The position numbers were made by a program, and so were the translations under genes. Below the pieces are notes generated by a model, which saw only the letters and a list, made by a program, of their open reading frames with translations, had not been told where the DNA came from and did not search any database. Shown here piece after piece: positions 15,060 through 41,187 of a stretch of DNA of 64,000 bases (its first letter is position 1; each line of letters opens with the position of its first letter). Source of the stretch: Gemmatimonadales bacterium (GTDB lineage: Bacteria; Gemmatimonadota; Gemmatimonadetes; Gemmatimonadales; GWC2-71-9); assembly GCA_019637315.1 (NCBI GenBank), contig JAHBVU010000008.1:124001-188000 (forward strand), written 5' to 3'.

Positions 15060-15557
15060 ATGGTTCGGATGACGGTGGCCCATCTTGGCGTCGAGCGGAG
15101 CACCAACACCCCGGTGGTGGTGCTGCATGAGGTTGGCGGCAGCCGCAGTCTTCAGATCTGGATCGGTGCCTCGGAAGCCAACGCCATTGCCGTGGAACTC
15201 CGGGGCGAGCATCCGTCCCGCCCGATGACGCACGACTTGCTCAAACAATTGTTGCGGGGGCTCGGTGGCGAGTTGCGCCGGGTCTCGGTAACGGCCCTCC
15301 GTGACAACACCTACTACGCCGAGCTGCTGGTGGCACGTGGCGATCACTTGTTCGTGATCGATGCCCGACCCTCGGACAGCATTGCGCTGGCGCTTCGCTT
15401 CGACGCGCCGATTTTCGTCAGTGAGGATCTGCTGCGGGACGAGGGCGATGGCGGCCCGTCCGGCCCGGCCGCCGACGACCCCACGGCAGGCGCCGAGGCG
15501 CTCAAGCGGTTTCTCTCGAAGCTCGACCCGGAAGATCTGGGACGGTTCCAGCCATGA
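15060..15557 (+). CDS. Bifunctional nuclease family protein (DUF151)
   Basis: The 165-residue protein matches the DUF151/BFN family: NTPVVVLHEVGGSRSLQIWIGASEANAIAVELRG, RPMTHDLLKQLL and the acidic-site motif RPSDSIALALRFDAPIFVSEDLL near residue 103. Members have been reported to have DNase/RNase activity, but the cellular role is unclear in bacteria. It lies 14 bp after metK and overlaps the following gene by ATGA. The last 30 residues form an acidic, Pro/Gly-rich and then helical tail. Confidence 0.85.
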   Translation: MVRMTVAHLGVERSTNTPVVVLHEVGGSRSLQIWIGASEANAIAVELRGEHPSRPMTHDLLKQLLRGLGGELRRVSVTALRDNTYYAELLVARGDHLFVIDARPSDSIALALRFDAPIFVSEDLLRDEGDGGPSGPAADDPTAGAEALKRFLSKLDPEDLGRFQP

Positions 15558-16669
15558 CCGTCCGCTGGGCCCTCGCACTGCTGGCGGTGGGGGCGCTGCC
15601 CCTCGCTGCCCAGCGACCGACTCGCGCCGAGGGCACGGTCATTCGTCCGCAGCTGGCTGACACGACGCCGGTCGGCGGGGTGCGCGTGGTGCTGCATCAG
15701 GTCGGCCGCGCCACTCAGGGGCCGCTCGACACCGTGCAGACCGATCGGCGTGGTCGTTTTGCCTTCCGGTTCCCGGCCGATTCCACGGCCAACTACCTGG
15801 TGAGCGTCCGCTACGCCGGAATCGAGTACTTCTCCACGCCGCTCGCGACCAATCCCGCACGGCCGGACACGATGGTGCAGCTCTTCGTGTTCGACACGGC
15901 CTCGACCACGACCATCTCCGCGCGCAGCCGCACCCTGGTCGTGGGTGCGGCTGACGCGATCGGTGCGCGTACGGTGGTCGACTGGCTGGTCATCGATAAT
16001 CGGGGCGTCACAACCCGGGTCGGAGCCGATTCGCTGGCGCCGACCTGGGCGGCGCCGTTGCCCGCCGGCGTGCGGAACCAGCAGGTGGGCGGCGGGGCGC
16101 TGTCGCAGCTCTCGCCCGACGCCGTCGAGTTCCGCGACGACAGCGTGTTCGTCTTTGCGCCGCTGTCGCCTGGTGAAAAGGAGCTGCTGCTCCAGTATGA
16201 AGTGCCGGCCGGGCAGCGACGCCTCGAGCTGGCGACGGTCGGGATCGACTCGGTCGACGTCTTCGTCGAAGAGGAAACGGTCCGAGTCGAAGGTGGGCGT
16301 TGGATCCAGGGACCGCCCCAGATGTTCGAGGGCCGCTCCTTCCGTCGCTTTGTTGCGCCAGGTGGCGAGGTTGGCCTCGCATTGGTGTTTCCCAGAACCT
16401 CGTTTGGTATAGCGGTGCTGCCCGTGGCCGTCGCGGGCACCGCTTTGGGCCTGCTGCTGCTCAGCTGGGTCGTGCTGAGGCGGCAGCGCCCAGAGACCCG
16501 GCGTTCGACGCCTTCGTCGGTCGAGCTCGCCGACCGGATCGCGGCGCTCGATCGAACTCTGGAAGAGCCGGGAACGTTGCCGGAGTTGCGCTCGCAACTC
16601 GAGCGCGACCGGGGTGCCCTGGCGGAGCAGCTTCGTGCGGCCCTCGCGTCGCGTCCTCGGCGAACCTGA
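15554..16669 (+). CDS. Exported single-pass membrane protein with a carboxypeptidase-regulatory-like domain
   Basis: The 371-residue protein starts with a signal peptide (VRWALALLAVGALPLAAQ). Residues about 25-110 look like a carboxypeptidase-regulatory/Ig-like beta-sandwich (TPVGGVRVVLHQV, DRRGRFAFRFPADSTANYLVSV). A second beta-rich region follows to about 275. One transmembrane helix lies near residues 283-308, followed by a basic stop-transfer RRQRPETRR and a short predicted coiled coil (ADRIAALDRTLEE through RAAL). Function is unknown. It lies between the DUF151 gene and btuF, whose start is inside its 3' end. Confidence 0.7.
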   Translation: MTVRWALALLAVGALPLAAQRPTRAEGTVIRPQLADTTPVGGVRVVLHQVGRATQGPLDTVQTDRRGRFAFRFPADSTANYLVSVRYAGIEYFSTPLATNPARPDTMVQLFVFDTASTTTISARSRTLVVGAADAIGARTVVDWLVIDNRGVTTRVGADSLAPTWAAPLPAGVRNQQVGGGALSQLSPDAVEFRDDSVFVFAPLSPGEKELLLQYEVPAGQRRLELATVGIDSVDVFVEEETVRVEGGRWIQGPPQMFEGRSFRRFVAPGGEVGLALVFPRTSFGIAVLPVAVAGTALGLLLLSWVVLRRQRPETRRSTPSSVELADRIAALDRTLEEPGTLPELRSQLERDRGALAEQLRAALASRPRRT

Positions 16670-17546
16670 TCGCCGGGTTCGATCCCTGCAGGCCGCGCTG
16701 CTGGCTGCGTGGCTGGTCGGGTGCGCGCCGAGCCGCGACGCGGTACCTGCCATCACCCTCACCGATGATAGTGGGCACACCACGACGCTGGCCGCACCGG
16801 CCAGCCGCGTGGTCTCTCTGGTTCCCGCCGCCACGGAGTTGGTCTACGCGCTCGGCGCCGGCAGCACACTGGTGGGAAGAACCCGCTGGTGTGATTACCC
16901 CGCGGAAGCTCTCGAGGTGCCGTCGGTCGGCGATGGAATCATGCCGAACGTCGAAGCGGTGGTCGGCCAGCGCCCCGACCTCGTGCTGGCCTACCGTTCC
17001 CCCGGCAACGTCTCCGCCGTGACCAGACTGCGCGGGCTGGGCATTCCTGTGCTGGAAATCGCCATCGATCAGCTCAGTGACTTCGAACGCGATGCCCGGC
17101 TGCTCGCCGCCGCGCTCGGTCGGTCGGCAGCCGGTGACAGCCTGGTCGAGCAGACCCGCGCGGATCTCGAGGCCGCCTCCGCCGTGCGCGCTAAGCCACC
17201 GACCGTGCTGATCGTCAGCTGGAGCGACCCGCCCATCGTGATCGGGGCGGGGAGCTTCCTCAACGAAATTCTCCACCGTGCCGGCGCGGTCAACCTGTAC
17301 GGCGACAGCGATCGTCCCTCGTTTGTCGTCTCGATCGAATCAGTCGTCGATCGCGATCCGGATTGGATCCTCGTCGTCGGTGACAGCGAGCCTGCATTCC
17401 TGGGCAAGCCGGAATGGCAGGTCGTACCCGCGGTTCGGGAACGACGCCTGCTGCGGGTTTCGGGGTCGATGTTCAGCCGGCCGAGTCCGCGGATCGGGCA
17501 GGCGGTCCGACAGTTGCGCAGCGCGCTCGAGACCGCCGGTCGATGA
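16614..17546 (+). CDS. btuF: ABC transporter substrate-binding lipoprotein, probable vitamin B12 binder
   Basis: Starts at GTG 16614 or GTG 16635, overlapping the previous gene by 35-56 bp. The N-terminus ends in the lipobox LVGC (Cys37 from the first start), so it is a lipoprotein. The mature part matches cobalamin-binding BtuF proteins: RVVSLVPAATELVYALGAG, the CDYP motif in RTRWCDYPAEALEVPSVG, and NVEAVVGQRPDLVLA. Other members of this fold bind iron chelates; the CDYP element and following btuCD genes favour B12. It would deliver cobalamin to BtuCD in the inner membrane. Confidence 0.8.
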   Translation: MPWRSSFVRPSRRVLGEPDRRVRSLQAALLAAWLVGCAPSRDAVPAITLTDDSGHTTTLAAPASRVVSLVPAATELVYALGAGSTLVGRTRWCDYPAEALEVPSVGDGIMPNVEAVVGQRPDLVLAYRSPGNVSAVTRLRGLGIPVLEIAIDQLSDFERDARLLAAALGRSAAGDSLVEQTRADLEAASAVRAKPPTVLIVSWSDPPIVIGAGSFLNEILHRAGAVNLYGDSDRPSFVVSIESVVDRDPDWILVVGDSEPAFLGKPEWQVVPAVRERRLLRVSGSMFSRPSPRIGQAVRQLRSALETAGR

Positions 17547-18508
17547 AGTTCCTGCTGCTCTGTCTAGCGACCGTGGCGGCGGTGCTGGTGGCGCTGGCCA
17601 TCGGTGCGGTGCCGCTGCCGCTGTCGCAAGTGGTCGACGGGGTGTTCAACCCCGACGGACCGGCCGGAACCATCGTCTGGCAACTGCGGATGCCGCGCAT
17701 CCTCCTTGCCTTTGCGGTCGGCGGAGCGCTCGGGGTATCCGGGGCGGCGCTGCAGGCGCTGGTGCGGAATCCGCTGGCGGAACCGTATCTGCTGGGCATC
17801 TCCGGTGGGGCCGGGCTCGGCGCCGTCGCGGCCATCGCGCTCGGATTTGCGGGGCTCTTTGCCGTGCCGACCGCGGCTTTTCTCGGCGCGTTGGCAGCGT
17901 CCGCCGCTGTGTACGGTGTGGCGGTGGTGCAGGGGACCCGACTCGAGCCACGCGTTCTGGTGCTGGTGGGCGTGGTGATTGCCGCGCTCTGCGGAGCGCT
18001 CACGTCGGCGCTGCTGGCCCTCTCGGAGGCTGCGCAGCTTCGCAACGCGTTTCTCTGGTTGCTCGGCGGCTTTGCGGCGGCCAGCTGGCCGGCCGTCGGG
18101 GCGTTTACGGTCTATGCGCTGCTCCCGCTGGTCTATCTCTTCGGAGCTTCGAGGTCGCTCGATCTCCTCTCCCTCGGTGACGAGCCGGCTCACGCGCTCG
18201 GCCTTCGCACCGAGCTCACCAAGCGAACGGTGTTCCTCGCGACGGCCCTCCTGACGGCGGCCAGCGTGGCGGTCAGCGGCATGATCGGCTTCGTCGGTCT
18301 GCTGGCGCCCCACGCAATGCGCGGCTGGGTCGGACCGCGACATGGCGCCCTGCTGCCGGCCGTCTTCGTGGCCAGCGGCGGCCTGCTGATTCTTGCGGAT
18401 GCCGTTGCTCGCACCGTTCTCCGTCCAGCGGAACTGCCGATCGGCGCCATCACGGCCCTGATCGGTGTACCACTCTTTGCCGCCTTGGTGCGGCGGTCAC
18501 TGACCTGA
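17543..18508 (+). CDS. btuC: Vitamin B12 (FecCD-family) ABC transporter permease
   Basis: Start set at ATG 17543, in an ATGA overlap with btuF; the frame is open further upstream inside btuF. The 321-residue protein has about nine to ten membrane helices and family motifs QLRMPRILLAFAVGGALGVSGAALQALVRNPLAEPYLLGISGGAGLGAV, GEPAHALGL in the coupling region, and SGMIGFVGLLAPHAMR. These are typical of FecCD permeases for B12, haem or siderophores. Substrate assignment to B12 rests on btuF. Confidence 0.85.
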   Translation: MKFLLLCLATVAAVLVALAIGAVPLPLSQVVDGVFNPDGPAGTIVWQLRMPRILLAFAVGGALGVSGAALQALVRNPLAEPYLLGISGGAGLGAVAAIALGFAGLFAVPTAAFLGALAASAAVYGVAVVQGTRLEPRVLVLVGVVIAALCGALTSALLALSEAAQLRNAFLWLLGGFAAASWPAVGAFTVYALLPLVYLFGASRSLDLLSLGDEPAHALGLRTELTKRTVFLATALLTAASVAVSGMIGFVGLLAPHAMRGWVGPRHGALLPAVFVASGGLLILADAVARTVLRPAELPIGAITALIGVPLFAALVRRSLT

Positions 18509-19290
18509 TGCTTGCCGCGCACGACGTCACCATCCGTTATCCGGGTGCTGCGCACCCGGCGGTGCACGGCGTCACCCTGGCCGTCGAGCCCGGACGGCTG
18601 GTTGCGGTGGTCGGCCCCAACGGCAGCGGCAAGACCAGCCTGCTGCGAGCGCTCCTGGGCTCGCTCCGACCCGACGCTGGGCGGGTCGAACTGGATGGCC
18701 GCCCGATCGAGGCCTGGAGCGCCAGGGATCGTGCCCGGCGGATTGCCGCCGTCGCGCAGCGTGAGGATTACCCCTTTTCCTGGCGAGTCGAAGAGCTGGT
18801 CGGGTTTGGCCGCTACGCCTGGCTCGGTGCCCTGGAGCCGCTCGGCGCGCGCGATCGGGCTGCCATTGCTGACGCGATGGCGCGGGCCGACGTCGCCGGA
18901 CTGACCGGGCGTCGGATCGATACCCTGTCTGGGGGCGAGTGGCAGCGAGTTCGGATTGCGCGCGCCTTGGCGCAGGAGCCCGCCATTCTGCTGCTCGACG
19001 AGCCCACTGCATCGCTCGATCTCGGCCACGAGATGGAGATCTTCGAGTTGCTTCGCCGGCTCACCGACGGTGGAATCGCCAGCCTCGTCGTGACCCACCA
19101 TCTCAACCTGGCGGCACGGTTCGCCGATGCGATGGTGCTGATGAACGAGGGTCGGGCGGTTGCGAGCGGGCCACCGGCCCAGGTGCTCGAAGCCGGCCTG
19201 GTCGAACGCGTCTTTGCCTGGCCGGTCGCCATTCGTGACGAGGATGGGGTGCCCCAGATCGTGCCGAGGCGCCGGCCCGACGGGGTTTGA
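18508..19290 (+). CDS. btuD: Vitamin B12 ABC transporter ATP-binding protein
   Basis: The 260-residue ATPase has Walker A GPNGSGKTS at residues 36-44, Q-loop in VAQREDYPF, the signature LSGGEWQRVRIARALAQ around residue 140, Walker B ILLLDEPTASLD and the switch histidine in VVTHHLN. It pairs with the permease encoded immediately upstream (ATG overlaps the TGA by 1 bp). The C-terminal region ERVFAWPVAIRDEDG resembles other B12/iron-chelate ATPases. Confidence 0.88.
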   Translation: MLAAHDVTIRYPGAAHPAVHGVTLAVEPGRLVAVVGPNGSGKTSLLRALLGSLRPDAGRVELDGRPIEAWSARDRARRIAAVAQREDYPFSWRVEELVGFGRYAWLGALEPLGARDRAAIADAMARADVAGLTGRRIDTLSGGEWQRVRIARALAQEPAILLLDEPTASLDLGHEMEIFELLRRLTDGGIASLVVTHHLNLAARFADAMVLMNEGRAVASGPPAQVLEAGLVERVFAWPVAIRDEDGVPQIVPRRRPDGV

Positions 19291-19338
19291 CCGGGCGCCA
19301 TTTGCCCCGGGCCCGTTGCTCCCGGTATCGTTACCTGA

Positions 19339-20418
19339 ATGGCTGTGCTCGATCGTGTCCTGCCGCTTCTGTTGGTCAGTGGTCTGGCGAGTTGCGCCGC
19401 GACCACCGAACCACTGCCACCGCCCGAAGAGCGACTCCTCGTCGTCAACGCCGGCGAGAATTCGCTGTCGCTGATCCCGACCGAAGTCGGGCGTCCGTCG
19501 CGGAAGATCCTGGCACCCGGGCTTCGCGGCGGTGCTTCCGACATCTCGGCAGTGGGTCGGGTGGCCATCGTTTCGAGTCAGAGCAACGACTCGCTCGCGG
19601 TGTTCGATCTTCGCCTGGAGGAGGTCCGGAACTGGTACGCCTTTCCGGCGGGGTCCAAGCCCTCAGCCGTCGTGTTGCTCAGTGAACAGGTCGCCTACGT
19701 TGCCAATGCCGGAACCAATACGGTCACCCGGCTCAACCTCCTGACCGGTGATACGGCAAGCGTGGCTGTCGGGCAGTACCCGCGCGATCTGGTACTGACT
19801 CGCGGGCGGCTGTTCGTCGTCAACGCCAACGTGGAGCCGTGTCCCGAAGGCACTTGCTCATTGGGGGAAAGCTGGATCACGGTAGTCGATCCGCAAACCA
19901 ACGCGCGGGCCGCCGGGCGGGATTCGATTCCGCTGCCCACCCCAGGCAACGCGCGGTCGGCCACGCTCGGTGGGGACGGGCTGATTTACATCGTCAGCAC
20001 CGGCGACACGACAAGTGAAGTGTCCGGACGGCTCAGCATCGTCGACCCCATCCAACGCCAGGAGGTCGGCAGCTTTGCCGGCTTCGGTTTCGTGCCCTGG
20101 GGCGTGGCCTCCGATGGCGCCGAGCGTTTGTTCGTGACCTCGATCAAGGATGGCTTGATGGAGTTCAATACCCGGACCCGACGGGTGGTACGGGGCGCTG
20201 GCCAGGGGATCTTCGTTCTCAACAACGTGGCCGCGGCGGTCGACCCTGCGGGCAGGATCTACGCCATCGAGGCCACCGGATGCGATGCCGGGCAGGCAGG
20301 CAGGCTTCGGGTTTTCAGGCCGGATCTGACCCAGGCCCGCGACCTGGCCCTTGGCGTCTGTCCGGTGGCCGTGACCCTGGTCCTCCTGCCGGGCCTGGGC
20401 GGCCTGGCGGCTCCGTGA
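19339..20418 (+). CDS. YncE-like beta-propeller lipoprotein, candidate BtuG-type B12-capturing protein
   Basis: The 359-residue protein has a lipobox LASC with Cys19. The mature part consists of repeated blades: LLVVNAGENSLSLI, VAIVSSQSNDSLAVFDL, VAYVANAGTNTVTRLNLLTG, LFVVNANVEP, LIYIVSTGDT and similar strands, as in YncE-type seven-bladed propellers. Two cysteine pairs (CPEGTC and CDAG with a late C) may form disulfides. It follows btuD by 48 bp, on the same strand. Bacteroidota B12 loci encode BtuG, a propeller lipoprotein that captures B12 at the cell surface; the similar context suggests the same role here, but this is inference. Confidence 0.65.
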   Translation: MAVLDRVLPLLLVSGLASCAATTEPLPPPEERLLVVNAGENSLSLIPTEVGRPSRKILAPGLRGGASDISAVGRVAIVSSQSNDSLAVFDLRLEEVRNWYAFPAGSKPSAVVLLSEQVAYVANAGTNTVTRLNLLTGDTASVAVGQYPRDLVLTRGRLFVVNANVEPCPEGTCSLGESWITVVDPQTNARAAGRDSIPLPTPGNARSATLGGDGLIYIVSTGDTTSEVSGRLSIVDPIQRQEVGSFAGFGFVPWGVASDGAERLFVTSIKDGLMEFNTRTRRVVRGAGQGIFVLNNVAAAVDPAGRIYAIEATGCDAGQAGRLRVFRPDLTQARDLALGVCPVAVTLVLLPGLGGLAAP

Positions 20419-20448: not shown

Positions 20449-21219
20449 ATGGCCCCGATCGAGACGCCGGCCACCATCCTGTCGACCATTCCGTACGGCG
20501 AAACGTCCAAGATTGCCCGACTGGCAACGCGAGAGCTCGGCGTTGTCAGCGTGATTGCCAAGGGTGCCCGGCGGCCTCGCAGTGCGTTCGGCGCCTCGCT
20601 GCAGATCCTGAGCGACGGAATCGCGACCGTTCACCTTGCCCGTCATTCCGATCTTCACACCTTGAGCGCCTTTGATGTGGGTCGTGTCCCAGAGGCGATG
20701 GCCACTAACATCGAACGCTATGCCGTTGCCACGGTGCTGGGCGAGCTGATGCTCCGGTTTGCCCCGGGCGACCGCCAGGCGGCAACCTATGACTTCTTCC
20801 GCCACGGTCTCGACGTCCTGGAGGGGGTCCCCGCCGAGGTCGTGGCGATCGTCGGGCTCCGCTCGATCTGGGGACTCGTCGCTCATCTCGGCTTTGCGCC
20901 CGCACTGGGCGTGTGCGCCCGTGACGGCCTGCCGGTGGGCCGGGATCAGGGGCCGGTCGCCTTCTCGCCGGCCCATGGCGGGGTACTGTGCGCGGCCTGT
21001 GCCCGTGCGGTCGAAACCAGCCGTCTGACGCCCAAAGACCTTCGCGACCTCGAGGCGTTGATCGAAGGGCGGGGAGACCTGCCGGCCTTAGACAGTCGCT
21101 ACCTGGCCGCCCACCGGCGTTTGCTCGATCGCTACGTTCGTTACCATCTGGGGGACGGAGCGGCGCTGCCCGCGTTGGGCTTCTGGTCTGAGCCGGGCTG
21201 GGTTCAGGCTCCGGGGTAG
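20449..21219 (+). CDS. recO: DNA repair protein RecO
   Basis: The 256-residue protein matches RecO, which loads RecA on SSB-coated DNA with RecR. The OB-fold N-terminus shows IVLSxxPYGETSKIARLATRELGVVSVIAKGARRPRS-like features (ILSTIPYGETSKIARL and VIAKGARRPRSAFGA). The C-terminal helical part has the incomplete zinc region ACAR preceded by SPAHGGVLCAAC. Of the four zinc cysteines of many RecO proteins, at least CxxC and one upstream Cys are visible. Length is usual. Confidence 0.88.
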   Translation: MAPIETPATILSTIPYGETSKIARLATRELGVVSVIAKGARRPRSAFGASLQILSDGIATVHLARHSDLHTLSAFDVGRVPEAMATNIERYAVATVLGELMLRFAPGDRQAATYDFFRHGLDVLEGVPAEVVAIVGLRSIWGLVAHLGFAPALGVCARDGLPVGRDQGPVAFSPAHGGVLCAACARAVETSRLTPKDLRDLEALIEGRGDLPALDSRYLAAHRRLLDRYVRYHLGDGAALPALGFWSEPGWVQAPG

Positions 21220-26196: not shown

Positions 26197-29100
26197 ATGG
26201 TGAGTCGTAAGATCCCAGGCGCATCGGTGCTGGGGCTACTTGCCGCCGTGTTGTTTGCGGGGCAGGCCCAGGCGCAGTCCACGGGCTCGATTGCTGGCAC
26301 AGTGGTTGACGCGCTCACCCGGCGGCCGATCGGTGCTGCGCAGGTCAGCGTGGTCGGTACCAACCTGGCCACCACGACCAACAGCAACGGCAACTACACC
26401 CTCACTGGCGTCGCGGCGGGCACAGTCACCTTGCGGATCCTTGGGATCGGGTATGCCGAGGTATCGCGAGAGATCAGCGTCACGGCCGGGCAGCGGGTCA
26501 CCGTCGACATCCAGATGCAGGCGCGGGCCATGGAGCTCAGCCCCCTGGTCGTGACGGCAACGGGTGAACAGCGGCGCATCGAAGTCGGTAACGCGATTGC
26601 CTACGTCAATGCGGCCGAGGTCGTCGAACGCCAGTCGATCTCCAACATGACGGACATGCTGACCGCTCGTGCGGCCGGCGTGCTGGTCACGCCGCCGATT
26701 CAGACGGGCGGCGGCGGTCGGATTCGGATTCGCGGCAACAGCTCGATGTCGCTGACGAATAACCCAATCTTTGTGATCGACGGCGTTCGCGTCGAAGGTA
26801 CCACGGGATCGTCATCGATCGGCGTCGGCGGGACCACGGTGTCGCGGATGAACGATTTCAATCCCGAAGAGATCGAGTCGATCGAGGTGGTGCGCGGTCC
26901 CTCGGCGGCGACCCTGTATGGAACGGACGCAGCCAACGGCGTGATCGTGATCCGGACCAAGCGAGGTGTGGCTGGCCGGACCGATTGGAGCTACTACACC
27001 GAGCAGGCGGCGCTGTCGGATCGCAACAAGTATCCTGACGCGTACTGGGGTTGGACGGCCGGTTCCACCCGGACCAACTTCACCCAGTGTATCCTGTCCC
27101 AGGTCATCTCCGGAGCCTGCGTTCAGGACAGCGTCACCATGTACAACCTCCACAAGGATCCCGAAGCCACCCCGTACGGCACCGGCTACCGCCAGCAGCA
27201 CGGCTTGCAGGTTCGCGGTGGCTCCGACGCGGTCCGGTACTTCATGCACGGCGAGTTCGAGACGGAGGACGGCGTCACCAAGATCCCGACCTTCGATCAG
27301 CGCTGGCTTGACAACCGAGGTATCACGCTTCGGCCCGAGCAGCGCAATCCGAACGGGCTCAAGCGGTTTTCGGCGCGATCGAACCTCGACGTTGCCCTCA
27401 ACGCCAATACCGACGTTTCTGTGAGTCTGGGCTACATCCAGCAGGAAACGCGGCTGACCCGAAGCGATGACTCAGGTGTTCCCGGTCTCGCCACCAACAC
27501 CTTCGGTGGTCACGGCTACAAGTACATGACCAACCTTGCCGGCGACACCCTGCACGGGTATCGGACCGTGACACCCCGCGAGATTTACCGGACCTCGACT
27601 GCTCAGGACGTGAACCGCTTCATCGGGTCGATCACGGCTCAGTGGCGGCCGCGCTCGTGGCTGAGCGGCCGGGGTACCTACGGTATCGACTTCGTCGGGC
27701 GCAAGGAAACCCAGCTCTGCCGTTTCACCGAGTGCCCGGTGTCCGGTACGGACGCCCTTGGTTTCAAGCGCGACAACCGTACCAACATGTTCGCGCACAC
27801 GCTCGACGCCGCGCTGACCGCAACGCGGTTGATCTCCTCGTCAATCGAATCCAAGACCACGGTTGGCGTTCAGTACAATCGCAACACATTCGATCGAAAC
27901 GGCGCCTTCGGTCAGGAACTGCCTCCCGGCGCCACCACGGTAACCTCGGCCGCGATCAAAACCTCGGACGAATCGAACAGCGAAACCCGGACGATCGGCG
28001 CGTACATCGAGCAGCATATCGCCCTCAACGACCGTCTCTTCCTGACGGGTGCGCTGCGCTCAGATCGCAACAGTGCCTTCGGCGCGGACTTCAAGACGGT
28101 GCTCTATCCGAAGTTCTCGGCGTCCTGGGTAGTTGCCCAGGGGCGGGGCGGGCTGGTCGACCAGCTCAGGCTCCGTACCGCGTACGGCGCGTCTGGCGTG
28201 CAGCCCAGCACCACGGCAGCCGTGCAGTTCTACTCCCCGCTCACCTATGTGGGCGAGTCGGGCGAGGCCCCCGGCCTGGTGGCCGATGCACTCGGAAACC
28301 GCGACCTCAAGCCGGAACGGTCGGCCGAGCTCGAGGTCGGGTTCGATGCGACGCTCTTCAATAACCGGGTGACCGCTGAAGTGACCTGGTACAACAAGAA
28401 GTCGACCGACGCGCTGATCAGTCGGGTGCTGCCACCGTCGCTCGGCACCGGTGCGACCACCCGGTTCGAGAATCTCGGTGAAGTCAAGAACACCGGCTGG
28501 GAAATCATGCTGATGGCGCAGGTCATCGATGGCCGGTCGTTCGGATGGGATCTTGCCCTCAACGGGTCGCTCAACAGCAACGAACTGATCAGCCTGGGTG
28601 GCGTGCCACCGGGGGCTGGCGCCACGTCTCGGAATGTCGAAGGCTACCCGCTCTTTGGCTGGTGGAACCATCGTTTCCTCGGCTTCGAGGACAAGAACGG
28701 CGACGGCCTGATCCGCTACAGCGCCGACCCCAATCTGAATGAGGTCTTCCTCGGCACCGAGCCCGAGTACCTCGGTCCGTCGCTTCCGACGCGCGAGTTT
28801 GCCCTGACCTCGGGCATCGATCTCTTCCGTCGCAGCTTGCGGCTCTCGGGTCAGCTCGACTACAAAGGCGGGCACCTGCTGTACAACAACACCGAGCGGA
28901 TCCGCTGCCAGAGCCGTAACAACTGCCGCGGTCTGATCGATCCGAACGCGCCGCTCTTCGAGCAGGCCCGGACCATCGCGGTCCGCCAGTTCGGCACCGC
29001 CATCGGCGGCGGCGCCTTCATGGAGAAGGCCGACTTCCTCCGGCTCCGTGAGCTGTCGCTTTCGCTGCGTGCACCGGATCGGTGGGCCGGTCTGATCGGT

Positions 29101-29268
29101 GGTCGCAGCCTGACCACGTCGCTCTCGGTGCGCAATGTCGCGATGCTCTGGACCGAGTACACCGGCGTCGATCCCGAGGCGATGGCCTCGACGATCAACA
29201 ACCCGTCGGAGTTCCAGGCCTTCGGACCGCCGACCTACGTCTCGTTCCGTCTCACGCTCGGCTTCTAA
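26197..29268 (+). CDS. SusC/RagA-like TonB-dependent outer-membrane receptor
   Basis: The 1023-residue protein begins with a signal peptide ending in AQAQS (about residue 27). Residues 28-110 form a carboxypeptidase-regulatory domain (GSIAGTVVDALTRRPIGAAQVSV); the plug follows at about 118-245 (GGRIRIRGNSSMSLTNNPIFVIDGVRVEG, VEVVRGPSAATLYGTDAANGVIVIRTKRG). The rest is the beta-barrel, ending in VSFRLTLGF. SusC-type receptors import oligosaccharides, peptides or other large nutrients with a SusD lipoprotein, encoded 11 bp downstream. GAGG at 26186-26189 serves as ribosome binding site. Substrate unknown, as no glycosidase is adjacent. Confidence 0.93.
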   Translation: MVSRKIPGASVLGLLAAVLFAGQAQAQSTGSIAGTVVDALTRRPIGAAQVSVVGTNLATTTNSNGNYTLTGVAAGTVTLRILGIGYAEVSREISVTAGQRVTVDIQMQARAMELSPLVVTATGEQRRIEVGNAIAYVNAAEVVERQSISNMTDMLTARAAGVLVTPPIQTGGGGRIRIRGNSSMSLTNNPIFVIDGVRVEGTTGSSSIGVGGTTVSRMNDFNPEEIESIEVVRGPSAATLYGTDAANGVIVIRTKRGVAGRTDWSYYTEQAALSDRNKYPDAYWGWTAGSTRTNFTQCILSQVISGACVQDSVTMYNLHKDPEATPYGTGYRQQHGLQVRGGSDAVRYFMHGEFETEDGVTKIPTFDQRWLDNRGITLRPEQRNPNGLKRFSARSNLDVALNANTDVSVSLGYIQQETRLTRSDDSGVPGLATNTFGGHGYKYMTNLAGDTLHGYRTVTPREIYRTSTAQDVNRFIGSITAQWRPRSWLSGRGTYGIDFVGRKETQLCRFTECPVSGTDALGFKRDNRTNMFAHTLDAALTATRLISSSIESKTTVGVQYNRNTFDRNGAFGQELPPGATTVTSAAIKTSDESNSETRTIGAYIEQHIALNDRLFLTGALRSDRNSAFGADFKTVLYPKFSASWVVAQGRGGLVDQLRLRTAYGASGVQPSTTAAVQFYSPLTYVGESGEAPGLVADALGNRDLKPERSAELEVGFDATLFNNRVTAEVTWYNKKSTDALISRVLPPSLGTGATTRFENLGEVKNTGWEIMLMAQVIDGRSFGWDLALNGSLNSNELISLGGVPPGAGATSRNVEGYPLFGWWNHRFLGFEDKNGDGLIRYSADPNLNEVFLGTEPEYLGPSLPTREFALTSGIDLFRRSLRLSGQLDYKGGHLLYNNTERIRCQSRNNCRGLIDPNAPLFEQARTIAVRQFGTAIGGGAFMEKADFLRLRELSLSLRAPDRWAGLIGGRSLTTSLSVRNVAMLWTEYTGVDPEAMASTINNPSEFQAFGPPTYVSFRLTLGF

Positions 29269-29279
29269 GGGGTGATGCC

Positions 29280-30653
29280 ATGATTGTTTCTCAGCGTCAT
29301 ACGCAGCCGCGGCGTCTTCGGATCGCGGGGATAGCCGCCGCGATGATCATCGCGGCGGGCAGTACCGGGTGTTCGCCGGGGGATCTCCTCGAGGTGGAAA
29401 CGCCGGATATCATCGATCCGCGGGCGGTGCAGTCGGCGGCGGGCGCCAACGCGGTGCGGCTCGGCGCCTTGGCGCAGTTCACGACCGCAACCTCCGGGGG
29501 TGAGAGTCTGTTGCTTTTGAGCGGACTCTTTGCCGATGAGTGGATCAACGGCGATACGTTCGTCGATCGTCATCAGTTCGACCGGCGCGACATGCTGCCG
29601 GCCAACACCTTCATGGCGACGGCATCGCGAAACCTCCACCGGGCGCGCCAGTCGGCGTCGCAGGCCGTCTCGCTGATGGGTACGTATCTGCCGGCGGCGC
29701 CGCCCTCCCAAGTAGGTGAGCTGCATTTCGTGCAGGCGTTTCTCGTCAATCAGGCGGCTGAGAACTTCTGCAACGGCTTGGTCTTCAGCGACGTCGCCGT
29801 TGACGGAACCATCACCTACGGCAATCAGATCACCGGGGTTCAGGCGTTTGAACGCGCCCTCGGCCATGCGACCGACGGGCTCGCGGTCATTACCGGAGCA
29901 ACTGCGGCCGATGTGCGGATCCGTCACGCGCTCAACCTGACCCGGGGGCGGATTCTCTTCAATCTGAACCGTCCGGCGGAAGCGGCAGCCGCCGTGGCAG
30001 GCGTTCCCACGAACTATGCGTACACCATCAATCACGGTGTCAGCACGGCCAACAACAACATCTGGACCTGGAACAACAACGCCCGGCGCTACAGTGTGGC
30101 GAACAATGAAGGCGGCAATGGCCTCAACTTCGCGTCGGCTGCCGACCCGAGAGTGCCGGTATGTCGTGCGCCGTGTCCGCAGGGTGGGGTCACCCAGGCC
30201 AGTCGCGAAGACGGCCAGCAGCCGCTCGATGTGCAGCAGCTCTGGCCGACGCGCGAGACGGGCGTTGCCTTGCTCCGGGGCGTCGATGCGCGGATGATCG
30301 AGGCTGAAGCGGCACTCCGAGCAGGAAATGCCGGCGCGGCGCTGGACATTCTCAACGCCGCCCGGGCGACCGTGTCACTGGCCCCCTTGACCGACGCTGG
30401 AACGGCGGCCGCTCGCCTGGATCAGATGATGCGCGAAAAGGCTTTCTGGTCCTTTGGACGCGGCCAGCGGATGGGCGACCTCCGCCGGCTGGTGCGGCAG
30501 TACAGCCGGCCCCAGAATACCGTCTTTCCCACCGGCACCTGGCACAAGGCGGGCGGTACCTACGGAAGCGATGTCAACATGCCGATTCCTCAGGAGGAGT
30601 CGAACAATCCCAACCTGAACGGAACTGCGGCGTGCCTCGATCGCAATCCGTGA
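29280..30653 (+). CDS. SusD/RagB-like surface lipoprotein
   Basis: Start set at ATG 29280, preceded by AAGGGG. The 457-residue product has a lipobox-like GSTGC with Cys31 and then the SusD pattern of helical TPR-like repeats: LEVETPDIIDP, LLSGLFADEWING, FVQAFLVNQAAENFCNGLVFSDV, IEAEAALRAGNAGAALDILNAAR, and a C-terminal EKAFWSFGRGQRMGDLRRLVRQY. SusD proteins sit on the SusC pore as a lid and bind the ligand. The SusC-SusD order and close spacing are standard. Confidence 0.9.
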   Translation: MIVSQRHTQPRRLRIAGIAAAMIIAAGSTGCSPGDLLEVETPDIIDPRAVQSAAGANAVRLGALAQFTTATSGGESLLLLSGLFADEWINGDTFVDRHQFDRRDMLPANTFMATASRNLHRARQSASQAVSLMGTYLPAAPPSQVGELHFVQAFLVNQAAENFCNGLVFSDVAVDGTITYGNQITGVQAFERALGHATDGLAVITGATAADVRIRHALNLTRGRILFNLNRPAEAAAAVAGVPTNYAYTINHGVSTANNNIWTWNNNARRYSVANNEGGNGLNFASAADPRVPVCRAPCPQGGVTQASREDGQQPLDVQQLWPTRETGVALLRGVDARMIEAEAALRAGNAGAALDILNAARATVSLAPLTDAGTAAARLDQMMREKAFWSFGRGQRMGDLRRLVRQYSRPQNTVFPTGTWHKAGGTYGSDVNMPIPQEESNNPNLNGTAACLDRNP

Positions 30654-37528: not shown

Positions 37529-39880
37529 ATGTTCGGACTTGGGAAGAACCGGTCGAGTGCCGGTCGACTCGCGCGTGCCGCGGGTCTGGCGGGTTTCATC
37601 GCAATCGCGTCGGTCGGTTCCGCCGATGCGCAGCAGACAGGTGGAGTCGAGGGCCGGGTGACCGGCGCGGCCAAGGAGCCGATCCACGCCGCCTTGGTGC
37701 AGGTCATCGGGACCGGCAAGTCGGTCCAGACCTCACCCGACGGACGCTATCGGATCGAGGGAATTCCTGCCGGCCAGTACACCGTGGCGGTTCGGGCCAT
37801 CGGGTGGAAGACCGCCCGGATCCCGGTGGCCGTCACTGCCGGGTCGGTAGTCGTTGTCGACGCTTCGCTCACCAACGATGCCGTGGTGCTCTCTGATGTC
37901 GTGGTGAGCGTCTCTCGCGAGGCGCAGTCGCGGTCCGAGGCGACGACCAGCGTTGGTGTGGTCGATCGGACGGTTCTGGAGCAGGCCAGGCCGCACCATC
38001 CGGCCGAGATCGTGGCCCGCGTGCCGGGCGCCTGGGTGGCGAACTTGAGCGGTGAGGGCCACTTCACCGCGATTCGTCAACCGATCACGACCAAGCCGAT
38101 GTATGCCTATCTCGAGGACGGGGTACCCACCCGCTCGACCGGCTTCTTCAATCACAACGCGCTCTACGAAGTGAACCTGCCGGGTGCCGAGCGGGTCGAG
38201 GTCATCAAGGGACCTGGCTCCGCGTTGTATGGCAGCGACGCCATCGGCGGTGTGGTCAACTCGTACACGCGCGCACCGAGCGATCGCCCGAGTGGCGAGC
38301 TCTTCGTCGAAGGCGGGCGTTTCGGCTATGCCCGGGTACTCGGTACGGCGAGCAACGCCTGGGGATCCAACGGACTCCGAGCCGATCTCAACCTGACTCG
38401 CTCCGACAGCTACCGGGACGGCGCACCGTACGCTCGGCAGAGCGGCACCGTGCGCTGGGATCACCGCCTCAGCGACGCTGCGTCGCTCAAGACGGTGGTG
38501 GCCTTTTCGCACATCGATCAGCCGGGGGACGGTGGCAGTGATGTGACGCAAGCCGACTTCGATGCGCGTCCAACCGCGAACTACACTCCGATTGCGTACC
38601 GCCGGGTGCTCGCGGTACGGGCGTCGTCGTCCCTCGAGCGGCAGAGCGGCTTGTCTCACTTTACCGCCACGGTTTATGGGCGACACAACCGGCTCGAGCT
38701 GATGCCCTCCTGGCAGCTCAGCTTCGACCCGCAGATCTGGGACAGCAAGAACCAGTCGGTCGGCCTGATGGGACGCTACCGGCAGACGGTGCTGCCGCTG
38801 CGCGCCAACCTGAGCGCCGGCGTCGATCTCGAGGTCAGCCCGGGCAGCAGGATGGAACAGGCGATTCTGCCCGTGCGCGATGGCGCGTTCTTTCGCGATT
38901 ACACGCCGGGCGTCGTGCAGTACGACTACGACGTCACCTTCTGGCAGACCTCACCCTACGTACAGGCCGAGGTCAATCCCGCAGCCGGCTTGCGGCTCGA
39001 TCTGGGGCTCCGCTTCGACAACGTTGGTTTCGACTACGATACCCGGCTCGATCCGATCGCGACCGGACCACACCGGCGCCCGGCCTCGACCGGAGTGTCC
39101 TACCAGCGCCTGAGTCCCAAGCTCGGCGCCTCGTTCGAAGTGACGCGCGGGCTCAACCTGTTTGCGTCCTACCGTGCGGCCTTCCGGGCGCCCTCCGAGA
39201 GCCAGTTGTTCCGGCAGGGATCGGCGCTCAATACGATCGACCTCGCGCCGGTCAAGGCGGACAATTACGAAGCGGGGACGCGCGTGGCGCTCGGCAGCCG
39301 GGTCAGCTTCGAGGCGACCGTCTACCAGCTCGATATCGAGGACGACATTCTGACGCTCACCGATCCGGTCACCGGGCTGCGCAGCGCCAGCAACGCCGGC
39401 GCGACCCGTCACCGCGGCGTCGAACTGGGTGCCGCGGTCGAGCCGGTGCGCGGCTTGCGGATCGACGGCAGCTGGACCGTTACCAAGCAGGAATACCTCG
39501 AGTGGCGCCCCAGTGCCGCGCTCGACTACAGCGGCAACGAGATCGAGATCGCTCCGCGCGACATGGGACGGGTCGGCGCCACCTTGACGCCGCGGGCGTT
39601 CGGGCGCGGCCACCTCGCGGCCGAGTGGCTCCACATGGGTTCCTACTGGATGGACCCGCAGAACACCGAGAAGTACGCGGGGCATGACGTCTTCTCGGTG
39701 TCGGGGTCGTTGCCGGTAACTGCGCAGTTCGACGTAGTCGGCCGGGTCCACAATATCGGCGACACCCGTTTTGCCGAGACCTCGTCGTACACGGCGTTGC
39801 AGGGTCGCCGCTACCGGCCCGGGCCGCCCCGCACGTTCTACCTCGGCCTGCAGTACCGCTTCGGCGCCCAAGGAGGCTGA
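37529..39880 (+). CDS. TonB-dependent outer-membrane receptor, possibly for a metal complex
   Basis: Start placed at ATG 37529 (MFGLGKNRSSAG), followed by a signal peptide ending in SADAQQ; the frame also opens at TTG 37487. The 783-residue protein has a carboxypeptidase-regulatory domain (GGVEGRVTGAAKEPIHAALVQV), a plug with VERVEVIKGPGSALYGSDAIGGVVN-like pattern at about 215-240, and a barrel ending FYLGLQYRFGAQGG, where the last residues after the final aromatic are unusual. It is smaller than SusC receptors and resembles siderophore/copper/B12 receptors. The neighbouring His-rich and CPCC proteins suggest a metal substrate. Confidence 0.85.
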   Translation: MFGLGKNRSSAGRLARAAGLAGFIAIASVGSADAQQTGGVEGRVTGAAKEPIHAALVQVIGTGKSVQTSPDGRYRIEGIPAGQYTVAVRAIGWKTARIPVAVTAGSVVVVDASLTNDAVVLSDVVVSVSREAQSRSEATTSVGVVDRTVLEQARPHHPAEIVARVPGAWVANLSGEGHFTAIRQPITTKPMYAYLEDGVPTRSTGFFNHNALYEVNLPGAERVEVIKGPGSALYGSDAIGGVVNSYTRAPSDRPSGELFVEGGRFGYARVLGTASNAWGSNGLRADLNLTRSDSYRDGAPYARQSGTVRWDHRLSDAASLKTVVAFSHIDQPGDGGSDVTQADFDARPTANYTPIAYRRVLAVRASSSLERQSGLSHFTATVYGRHNRLELMPSWQLSFDPQIWDSKNQSVGLMGRYRQTVLPLRANLSAGVDLEVSPGSRMEQAILPVRDGAFFRDYTPGVVQYDYDVTFWQTSPYVQAEVNPAAGLRLDLGLRFDNVGFDYDTRLDPIATGPHRRPASTGVSYQRLSPKLGASFEVTRGLNLFASYRAAFRAPSESQLFRQGSALNTIDLAPVKADNYEAGTRVALGSRVSFEATVYQLDIEDDILTLTDPVTGLRSASNAGATRHRGVELGAAVEPVRGLRIDGSWTVTKQEYLEWRPSAALDYSGNEIEIAPRDMGRVGATLTPRAFGRGHLAAEWLHMGSYWMDPQNTEKYAGHDVFSVSGSLPVTAQFDVVGRVHNIGDTRFAETSSYTALQGRRYRPGPPRTFYLGLQYRFGAQGG

Positions 39881-39882
39881 TG

Positions 39883-41187
39883 ATGCAGTGGATCCGGGTG
39901 GTCGGCGCGCTGGCGCTGACGGCAATGGCAGGTTGCAGACCTGGCACCGTGCCGATGACGCCGATCGAGCTGGCGTCGGGGGCGACGGCCACCGGTGCCA
40001 CGCCGATGATGTTGGTCACCTCGGCAGGCGATCGCGTTCTGTCGTGGGTCGCGGTCGATTCCGTCAGCGGTCGCGAAGCGCTCTTCGTCGAGGTCACTCG
40101 CGACGGCGCCACCAGCGGCGATCCGGTCGTCGTCGTGCGCGACTCCCTGGGCGGTATCAATCCGCACGGGGAGGCGCCTCCGCGCCTGGCGGAGTCGTCC
40201 GACGGCGCGATCTACGTGATGTACACCGTCGGCAAGGAAGTGCCTGGTTCGCGCTTTCCGCGAAGCGCGCTCCGACTGATCCGGTCGGACGACGGCGGCC
40301 GCAGCTGGAGCGAGCCGGTCAGCGTCAACGAGGGTGAACGCTTCGGTTCGCACAACTTCCACGCGGTGCTGGGCGGGCCGGGCGGAGCGGTGCACGCGGC
40401 CTGGTTGAGTTCCCATCACGGTCGGTCGATGGTCTGGATCCGGCAGTCGAAAGACGGCGGCCGGAACTGGGACACGGCCCGCGCCATCGACAGCGCGGCG
40501 GCGTGCCCCTGTTGCCGAACGGGCTTGGCGCTTGGTCCGGATGGCAGCCTCTACGTGGCCTGGCGGCGGATCTTCGACGGCGAGGTTCGGGATGTTGTCG
40601 TGATGCGGTCGCCGGACGGGGGTACCACCTGGGACGAGCCTGTCCGACCCCGTCAGGACGGCTGGGTCTTCCACGGGTGTCCCCACGCCGGTCCGTCGCT
40701 TGAAGTTGACCAGGCGGGTGCGGTGCACGTTGCCTGGTGGACCGGCAAGCCCGGCGAGGCAGGTGTGTACTACGCCCGGTCGGCCGACGCCGGCAAATCC
40801 TTCGAGGCGGTCCCGATTGCGGTGGGCGAGAAGGCCGCGCCGGCCCATGTGCAGCTGGCGGTCGGCAGCTTCGGAACCGTGGTCGGCTGGGATGACGGTC
40901 TCACCGCGTCGCCCCGGATCCTGATCCGGGCCGCAGCGCCGGGCGGCCGGTTCGGTCCTGAAATCCAGCTGAGTCAGGGCGGGGCGGCAACCTACCCCGT
41001 CTTTGCGGTGCTCCGGGACACCCTGCAGGTGGCCTGGAGCCAGAAGGCTGCCGACGTCTACCGGGCCGATGAGGCGGCTCGCCCGGACATGGACGACCCC
41101 AAAGCGGTCATGCCGCTGCCGCGGGTGGGCCAGTCTGAGATCTTCACCCGGCGCGCCAAGGTTGCGGACCTCATGATCGCCAACTAG
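39883..41187 (+). CDS. BNR/Asp-box repeat lipoprotein with CPCC motif (sialidase-like fold)
   Basis: ATG 39883 is spaced 6 bases from AGGAGG at 39871-39876; ATG 39880 is the alternative. The 434-residue protein has lipobox MAGC near residue 18 and four Asp-box-like repeats (SDDGGRSWSEP, SKDGGRNWDTA, SPDGGTTWDEP, SADAGKSFEAV), showing a beta-propeller. Cys208, Cys210 and Cys211 (CPCCRT) and Cys266 (GCPHAGP) are unusual for sialidases. The arginine triad of true sialidases is not evident, so sialic acid cleavage is unlikely. A surface metal- or ligand-binding role with the receptor is plausible. Confidence 0.7.
   Translation: MQWIRVVGALALTAMAGCRPGTVPMTPIELASGATATGATPMMLVTSAGDRVLSWVAVDSVSGREALFVEVTRDGATSGDPVVVVRDSLGGINPHGEAPPRLAESSDGAIYVMYTVGKEVPGSRFPRSALRLIRSDDGGRSWSEPVSVNEGERFGSHNFHAVLGGPGGAVHAAWLSSHHGRSMVWIRQSKDGGRNWDTARAIDSAAACPCCRTGLALGPDGSLYVAWRRIFDGEVRDVVVMRSPDGGTTWDEPVRPRQDGWVFHGCPHAGPSLEVDQAGAVHVAWWTGKPGEAGVYYARSADAGKSFEAVPIAVGEKAAPAHVQLAVGSFGTVVGWDDGLTASPRILIRAAAPGGRFGPEIQLSQGGAATYPVFAVLRDTLQVAWSQKAADVYRADEAARPDMDDPKAVMPLPRVGQSEIFTRRAKVADLMIAN

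Follow-up and report, generated by a model that had tools for sequence, protein, structure and literature searches.

Four open reading frames (ORFs) lie on the + strand between positions 16614 and 20418 of the window, the whole 64,000-nucleotide stretch of Gemmatimonadales DNA that was analysed. The first encodes a putative btuF-like periplasmic corrinoid-binding protein with a lipoprotein-type signal (16614..17546; PF01497, 98 bits), the start of which is probably GTG 16614 or 16635. It is followed by btuC for a FecCD-family permease (17414..18508; PF01032 FecCD, 292 bits), whose true start is probably internal to this ORF, and by btuD for an ABC ATPase (18508..19290; PF00005). The fourth ORF (19339..20418) encodes a 359-aa lipoprotein, described here as a BtuG-like 7-bladed propeller on the basis of the ORF, the lipobox, AlphaFold2 and Foldseek. 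The ORFs and the lipobox bear out the preliminary description, in which btuFCD was followed by a lipoprotein (Cys19) 48 bp past btuD. The conserved neighbours on both sides, assigned by Pfam, are also on the + strand: a gene with a carboxypeptidase-regulatory-like domain (15554..16669), whose 3' end is overlapped by btuF at 16614-16669, and recO (20449..21219), so that the propeller gene fills the slot before recO. The order btuFCD-propeller-recO-clpB is kept in related genomes, indicating that the arrangement is not due to chance. The NCBIfam models for BtuF and BtuC are among the best matches of the window proteins yet fall under their curated cut-offs, and the B12 label of the window btuFCD therefore comes mainly from its context.

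No TonB-dependent receptor adjoins the propeller gene in the window. The nearest one, at 26197-29268, is SusC-like by NCBIfam, in keeping with the earlier remark that no BtuB receptor is adjacent. A cobalamin riboswitch was not found at the window btuF either, even at E<=10. Sister genomes do have such a riboswitch at this place; in L037 it lies between the carboxypeptidase-regulatory-like gene and btuF, and this stretch is absent in the window. On this comparison of sequences, B12 control of btuFCD-propeller may have been lost here; that both riboswitch and receptor disappeared from the window locus is read from one assembly and its sister genomes.

The window also holds other pairs of receptor and lipoprotein genes. 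At 37529-41187, the gene of a TonB-dependent receptor whose best model is TonB-siderophor runs into the start of one for a BNR-repeat lipoprotein, a second receptor-plus-lipoprotein pair in which the lipoprotein is likely a propeller. At 26197-30653, the ORF after the SusC/RagA-family receptor (29082-30653) carries a lipobox and looks SusD-like.

Fold of the lipoprotein and its relation to BtuG

The lipobox ends in Cys19, which is kept in 20/20 rows of the family alignment A1. A script detected a lipobox in some 65 homologues and none in about 10 deep members (L121, L122, L127, L129-L133, L137 and L138), in which anchoring may differ. Pfam and NCBIfam searches with the propeller gave no match above the Pfam cut-off and weak matches to YVTN/PQQ-propeller repeats. 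The AlphaFold2 model, built with 20 homologues, is a 7-bladed propeller (pLDDT 89.9, pTM 0.87) with blades at residues 30-58 plus 342-350, 66-101, 108-143, 148-202, 205-246, 253-285 and 296-340, the first blade being closed by the C-terminal strand. The preliminary description had called for a 7-bladed propeller comparable with BtuG, and the model agrees with this on both counts: besides the seven blades, ranks 1-16 of a Foldseek search against the PDB are all BtuG. VIA-align gave Z scores of 30-33 for BtuG versus 36.6 for the archaeal YVTN propeller 1L0Q, so the fold by itself does not point to BtuG in particular. For the homologue of Gemmatimonas aurantiaca (pLDDT 92.8), 1L0Q takes Foldseek rank 1 and BtuG chains take ranks 2-11.

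BtuG of Bacteroides thetaiotaomicron (BtuG1/2/3) and its relatives (PDB 3DSM, 8BMX, 8BLW, 8PTD, 8PTF and 8OKV) have in common with the window protein the 7-bladed propeller lipoprotein and, in most relatives of the window propeller, a gene that adjoins btu genes and one for a BtuB-type receptor, with a cobalamin riboswitch in control. The same btuB-btuG order is seen in the Bacteroidota loci L153-L155. The two differ in phylum, in the propeller gene of the window's genus not adjoining a receptor, and in sequence, with about 13-18% identity in structural alignments. Membership of BtuG has been assigned by similarity to the B. thetaiotaomicron protein at a BlastP E<1e-10 (PMC6143338). Similarity of this order was not seen in single-sequence searches with the window propeller; phmmer against PDB sequences, BtuG included, returned no BtuG at E<=1, and DUF5074/PF16819 had no match anywhere in the window genome. 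By sequence, the propeller thus fails one defining test of the BtuG family. The earlier proposal of a BtuG-type protein is supported in part, by the fold and by the B12 context across the phylum.

Profiles gave a mixed picture. Among PDB sequences, BtuG1 chains were the best matches of profile A1, and a broader family profile ranked 1L0Q above BtuG. A profile comparison of the family with three BtuGs gave a modest match (probability 92%, E 8e-07). We also tried a BtuG profile as a test of orthology, which was uninformative, as the generic YVTN propeller L157 (69 bits) outscored the best member of the propeller family (38 bits). A BtuG search of viral contigs gave no match.

Genomic context across Gemmatimonadota

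Profile A1 found some match in 218 of 298 Gemmatimonadota genomes, many of which are fragmented metagenome assemblies, and a clear gap separated full-length members from generic YVTN repeats. The 79 loci taken around the strongest matches hold 78 members and one non-member, L144. Among the 61 loci having >5 kb of upstream DNA, 56 carry a cobalamin riboswitch (RF00174) upstream on the same strand, and L144 is one of the five that do not. At least one B12 feature is present in 75/79 loci; the other four are L043, L100 and L109, which lie at contig edges, and L144, and L100 still has a DUF71 gene. A TonB-dependent receptor precedes the propeller in the operon in about 61 of the 78 members, a count that combines 53 loci found by script with eight found by reading (L048, L103, L104, L116, L121, L122, L127 and L129), where the script had missed the receptor because of an overlong ORF or a gene in between.

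Two gene orders are usual: riboswitch-btuF-btuC-btuD-receptor-(DUF71)-propeller and riboswitch-receptor-propeller. Gemmatimonas aurantiaca T-27 (L051) has riboswitch-btuF-btuC-btuD-receptor-propeller, four loci (L054, L101, L114 and L115) keep receptor and propeller without adjacent btuFCD, and in 13 loci, those of the window's genus among them, the propeller gene directly follows btuD. A tandem pair of full-length propeller genes was observed within one B12 operon in L116 and in L123. The two checks on relatives suggested in the preliminary description, for linkage to B12 genes and for a btuB next to the propeller gene, thus come out in its favour, with btuFCD, BtuB-like receptors and cobalamin riboswitches beside the propeller across the phylum. 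Searched against 84,980 named genomes, profile A4 gave 28 confirmed loci, all in Gemmatimonadota, and a single-protein search of the same collection with the window propeller gave 0 confirmed matches.

Taken alone, the window locus, which has neither receptor nor riboswitch, would suit an unrelated YncE-like protein that came to lie between btuD and recO by chance, but the linkage to riboswitch and receptor recurs in many families of the phylum, including loci without recO and clpB as neighbours. Generic YVTN/YncE propellers, such as the surface-layer protein 1L0Q and E. coli YncE, have the same fold and similar or higher alignment scores, whereas none of the 34 located in these Gemmatimonadota genomes has a cobalamin riboswitch within 10 kb (0/34). 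A chance neighbour is, on these grounds, very improbable.

Genomes in which the propeller is missing were also sampled. A cobalamin riboswitch is still present in 57 of 60 genomes without a full-length propeller match, and most of 20 such loci read riboswitch-btuFCD-receptor-recO-clpB with the propeller slot empty. Many genomes thus have riboswitch, btuFCD and receptor without the propeller, which indicates that the propeller is a dispensable accessory to B12 uptake. This set corresponds to the E. coli-type BtuB-BtuFCD system, which has no propeller lipoprotein and with which the window's genome shares btuFCD and a receptor that comes closest to the TIGR01779 model; many Gemmatimonadota have only this set. 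In two loci (L205:5704-6951 and, in reverse complement, L206 5478-6920), the slot between receptor and recO holds a divergent propeller lipoprotein, so our survey undercounts propellers. Scored with the receptor profile, the receptors of these two loci fall far below the lone BtuB-like ones in neighbouring genomes, and receptor type and propeller may have been swapped together there.

A distant receptor in the window's genome

The genome of the window probably depends on imported corrinoids. No corrin-ring methyltransferases were seen in it, its single TP_methylase being probably RsmI, and it encodes five proteins with a B12-binding domain, which together point to corrinoid import. A survey of Gemmatimonadota likewise found no corrin-ring pathway, with btuB and tonB present (PMC10581226).

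The preliminary description had reasoned that a distant receptor would be needed, and a BtuB-like TonB-dependent receptor does lie on another contig, C6, under the only cobalamin riboswitch of the whole genome (RF00174, 71.6 bits). The riboswitch is upstream, on the same strand, of the receptor gene (L035:7053-8930), which is followed by a DUF71/diphthamide-synthase-like gene (L035:8927-9598); an earlier prediction for DUF71 proteins includes a B12-salvage branch (PMC3541065). The receptor matches PF00593 and PF07715 over the cut-off, and its best NCBIfam model is TIGR01779 TonB-B12 at 212 bits, below the curated cut-off of 599.7. TIGR01779 is also the best NCBIfam model for the propeller-linked receptors of L045, L049, L052 and L054. 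Searched against the window genome, the L049 receptor has one full-length match, the C6 receptor (171 bits), the next being partial at 62 bits. When 17 operon-linked receptors from the window's own family were compared with a subset of 10 receptors, their best match was again the C6 receptor. Those of the phylum's other families did not single it out, and its assignment as the partner of the window propeller, which we infer, therefore draws on matches within its own family together with the riboswitch and TIGR01779. The two receptors in the window, the SusC-like one at 26197-29268 and that at 37529-39880 with TonB-siderophor as best model, were considered as partners and are not favoured by the family models.

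The riboswitch-receptor-DUF71 unit is present in 5/5 members of the genus examined. In six related genomes (L047, L048, L053, L094, L103 and L104), receptor and DUF71 gene lie within the propeller operon, and for this reason the C6 unit may be a piece separated from that operon. In the window's genus, then, the receptor has been lost from the propeller operon, and a BtuB-like receptor is encoded elsewhere.

Proposed role in corrinoid capture

Computation establishes the fold, the lipobox and a placement beside BtuB-like receptors, btuFCD and cobalamin riboswitches that is conserved across Gemmatimonadota. We consider it probable that the protein is a lipoprotein of the outer membrane with a BtuG-like function, the capture of corrinoids for a BtuB-type receptor. 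BtuG itself is described as binding corrinoids very tightly on a negatively charged face, with conserved hydrogen-bonding residues in blades 1-4, and as forming a stable complex with BtuB at the cell surface. By analogy, the Gemmatimonadota propeller would face outwards at the outer membrane, bind corrinoids there and hand them to the BtuB-type TonB-dependent receptor, on which it might sit like a lid; BtuF and then BtuCD would carry them into the cell. Context and fold together make it very likely that the propeller works like BtuG, and the functional label of a BtuG-like partner of BtuB is well supported.

The same lipoprotein could instead face the periplasm and act as a chaperone that passes corrinoid from the receptor to BtuF. 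The window sequence from Cys19 on, CAATTEP, has no obvious surface-export signal, and the signal known from Bacteroidetes (PMC6143338) may not be that of this phylum; many relatives have acidic residues after the Cys (CSDALEQ, CGDD, CDGD). A periplasmic site would also suit the window's genus, where the propeller gene has kept its place beside btuFCD while the receptor is encoded elsewhere. Across the family, in contrast, the gene mostly follows that of the receptor, as btuG does in Bacteroidota, and the four loci without adjacent btuFCD have kept receptor and propeller together. On balance we regard a periplasmic chaperone as unlikely.

Less probable still is a purely structural or regulatory role at the receptor, for instance as a lid or an assembly factor, without corrinoid binding by the lipoprotein itself. 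Fold and context would suit any partner of the receptor, and in sequence the protein is no closer to BtuG than to generic YVTN propellers. Among characterised propeller lipoproteins, however, those associated with riboswitch-controlled B12 receptors are BtuGs, and these bind B12 (PMC6143338 and PMC10404256).

As to the origin of the propeller, we tentatively suggest that Gemmatimonadota and Bacteroidota may each have recruited a propeller lipoprotein to work with BtuB, in Gemmatimonadota one of the YVTN kind. Capture by BtuB plus a propeller would then have arisen two times, and in the window's genus the genes of propeller and receptor would have come apart, with riboswitch control of the propeller gene also lost here. 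BtuG has been described in Bacteroidetes only, from 313 gut genomes, and competition in the gut was offered as the explanation (PMC6143338); our literature search found no work linking BtuG with Gemmatimonad- names. Coupling of a propeller to a B12 receptor in Gemmatimonadota, which live in soils and waters and for which no corrin-ring synthesis was recorded (PMC10581226), would make propeller-based B12 capture a wider strategy, and with the operon of Gemmatimonas aurantiaca T-27 it can be tested directly in a type strain that is in culture.
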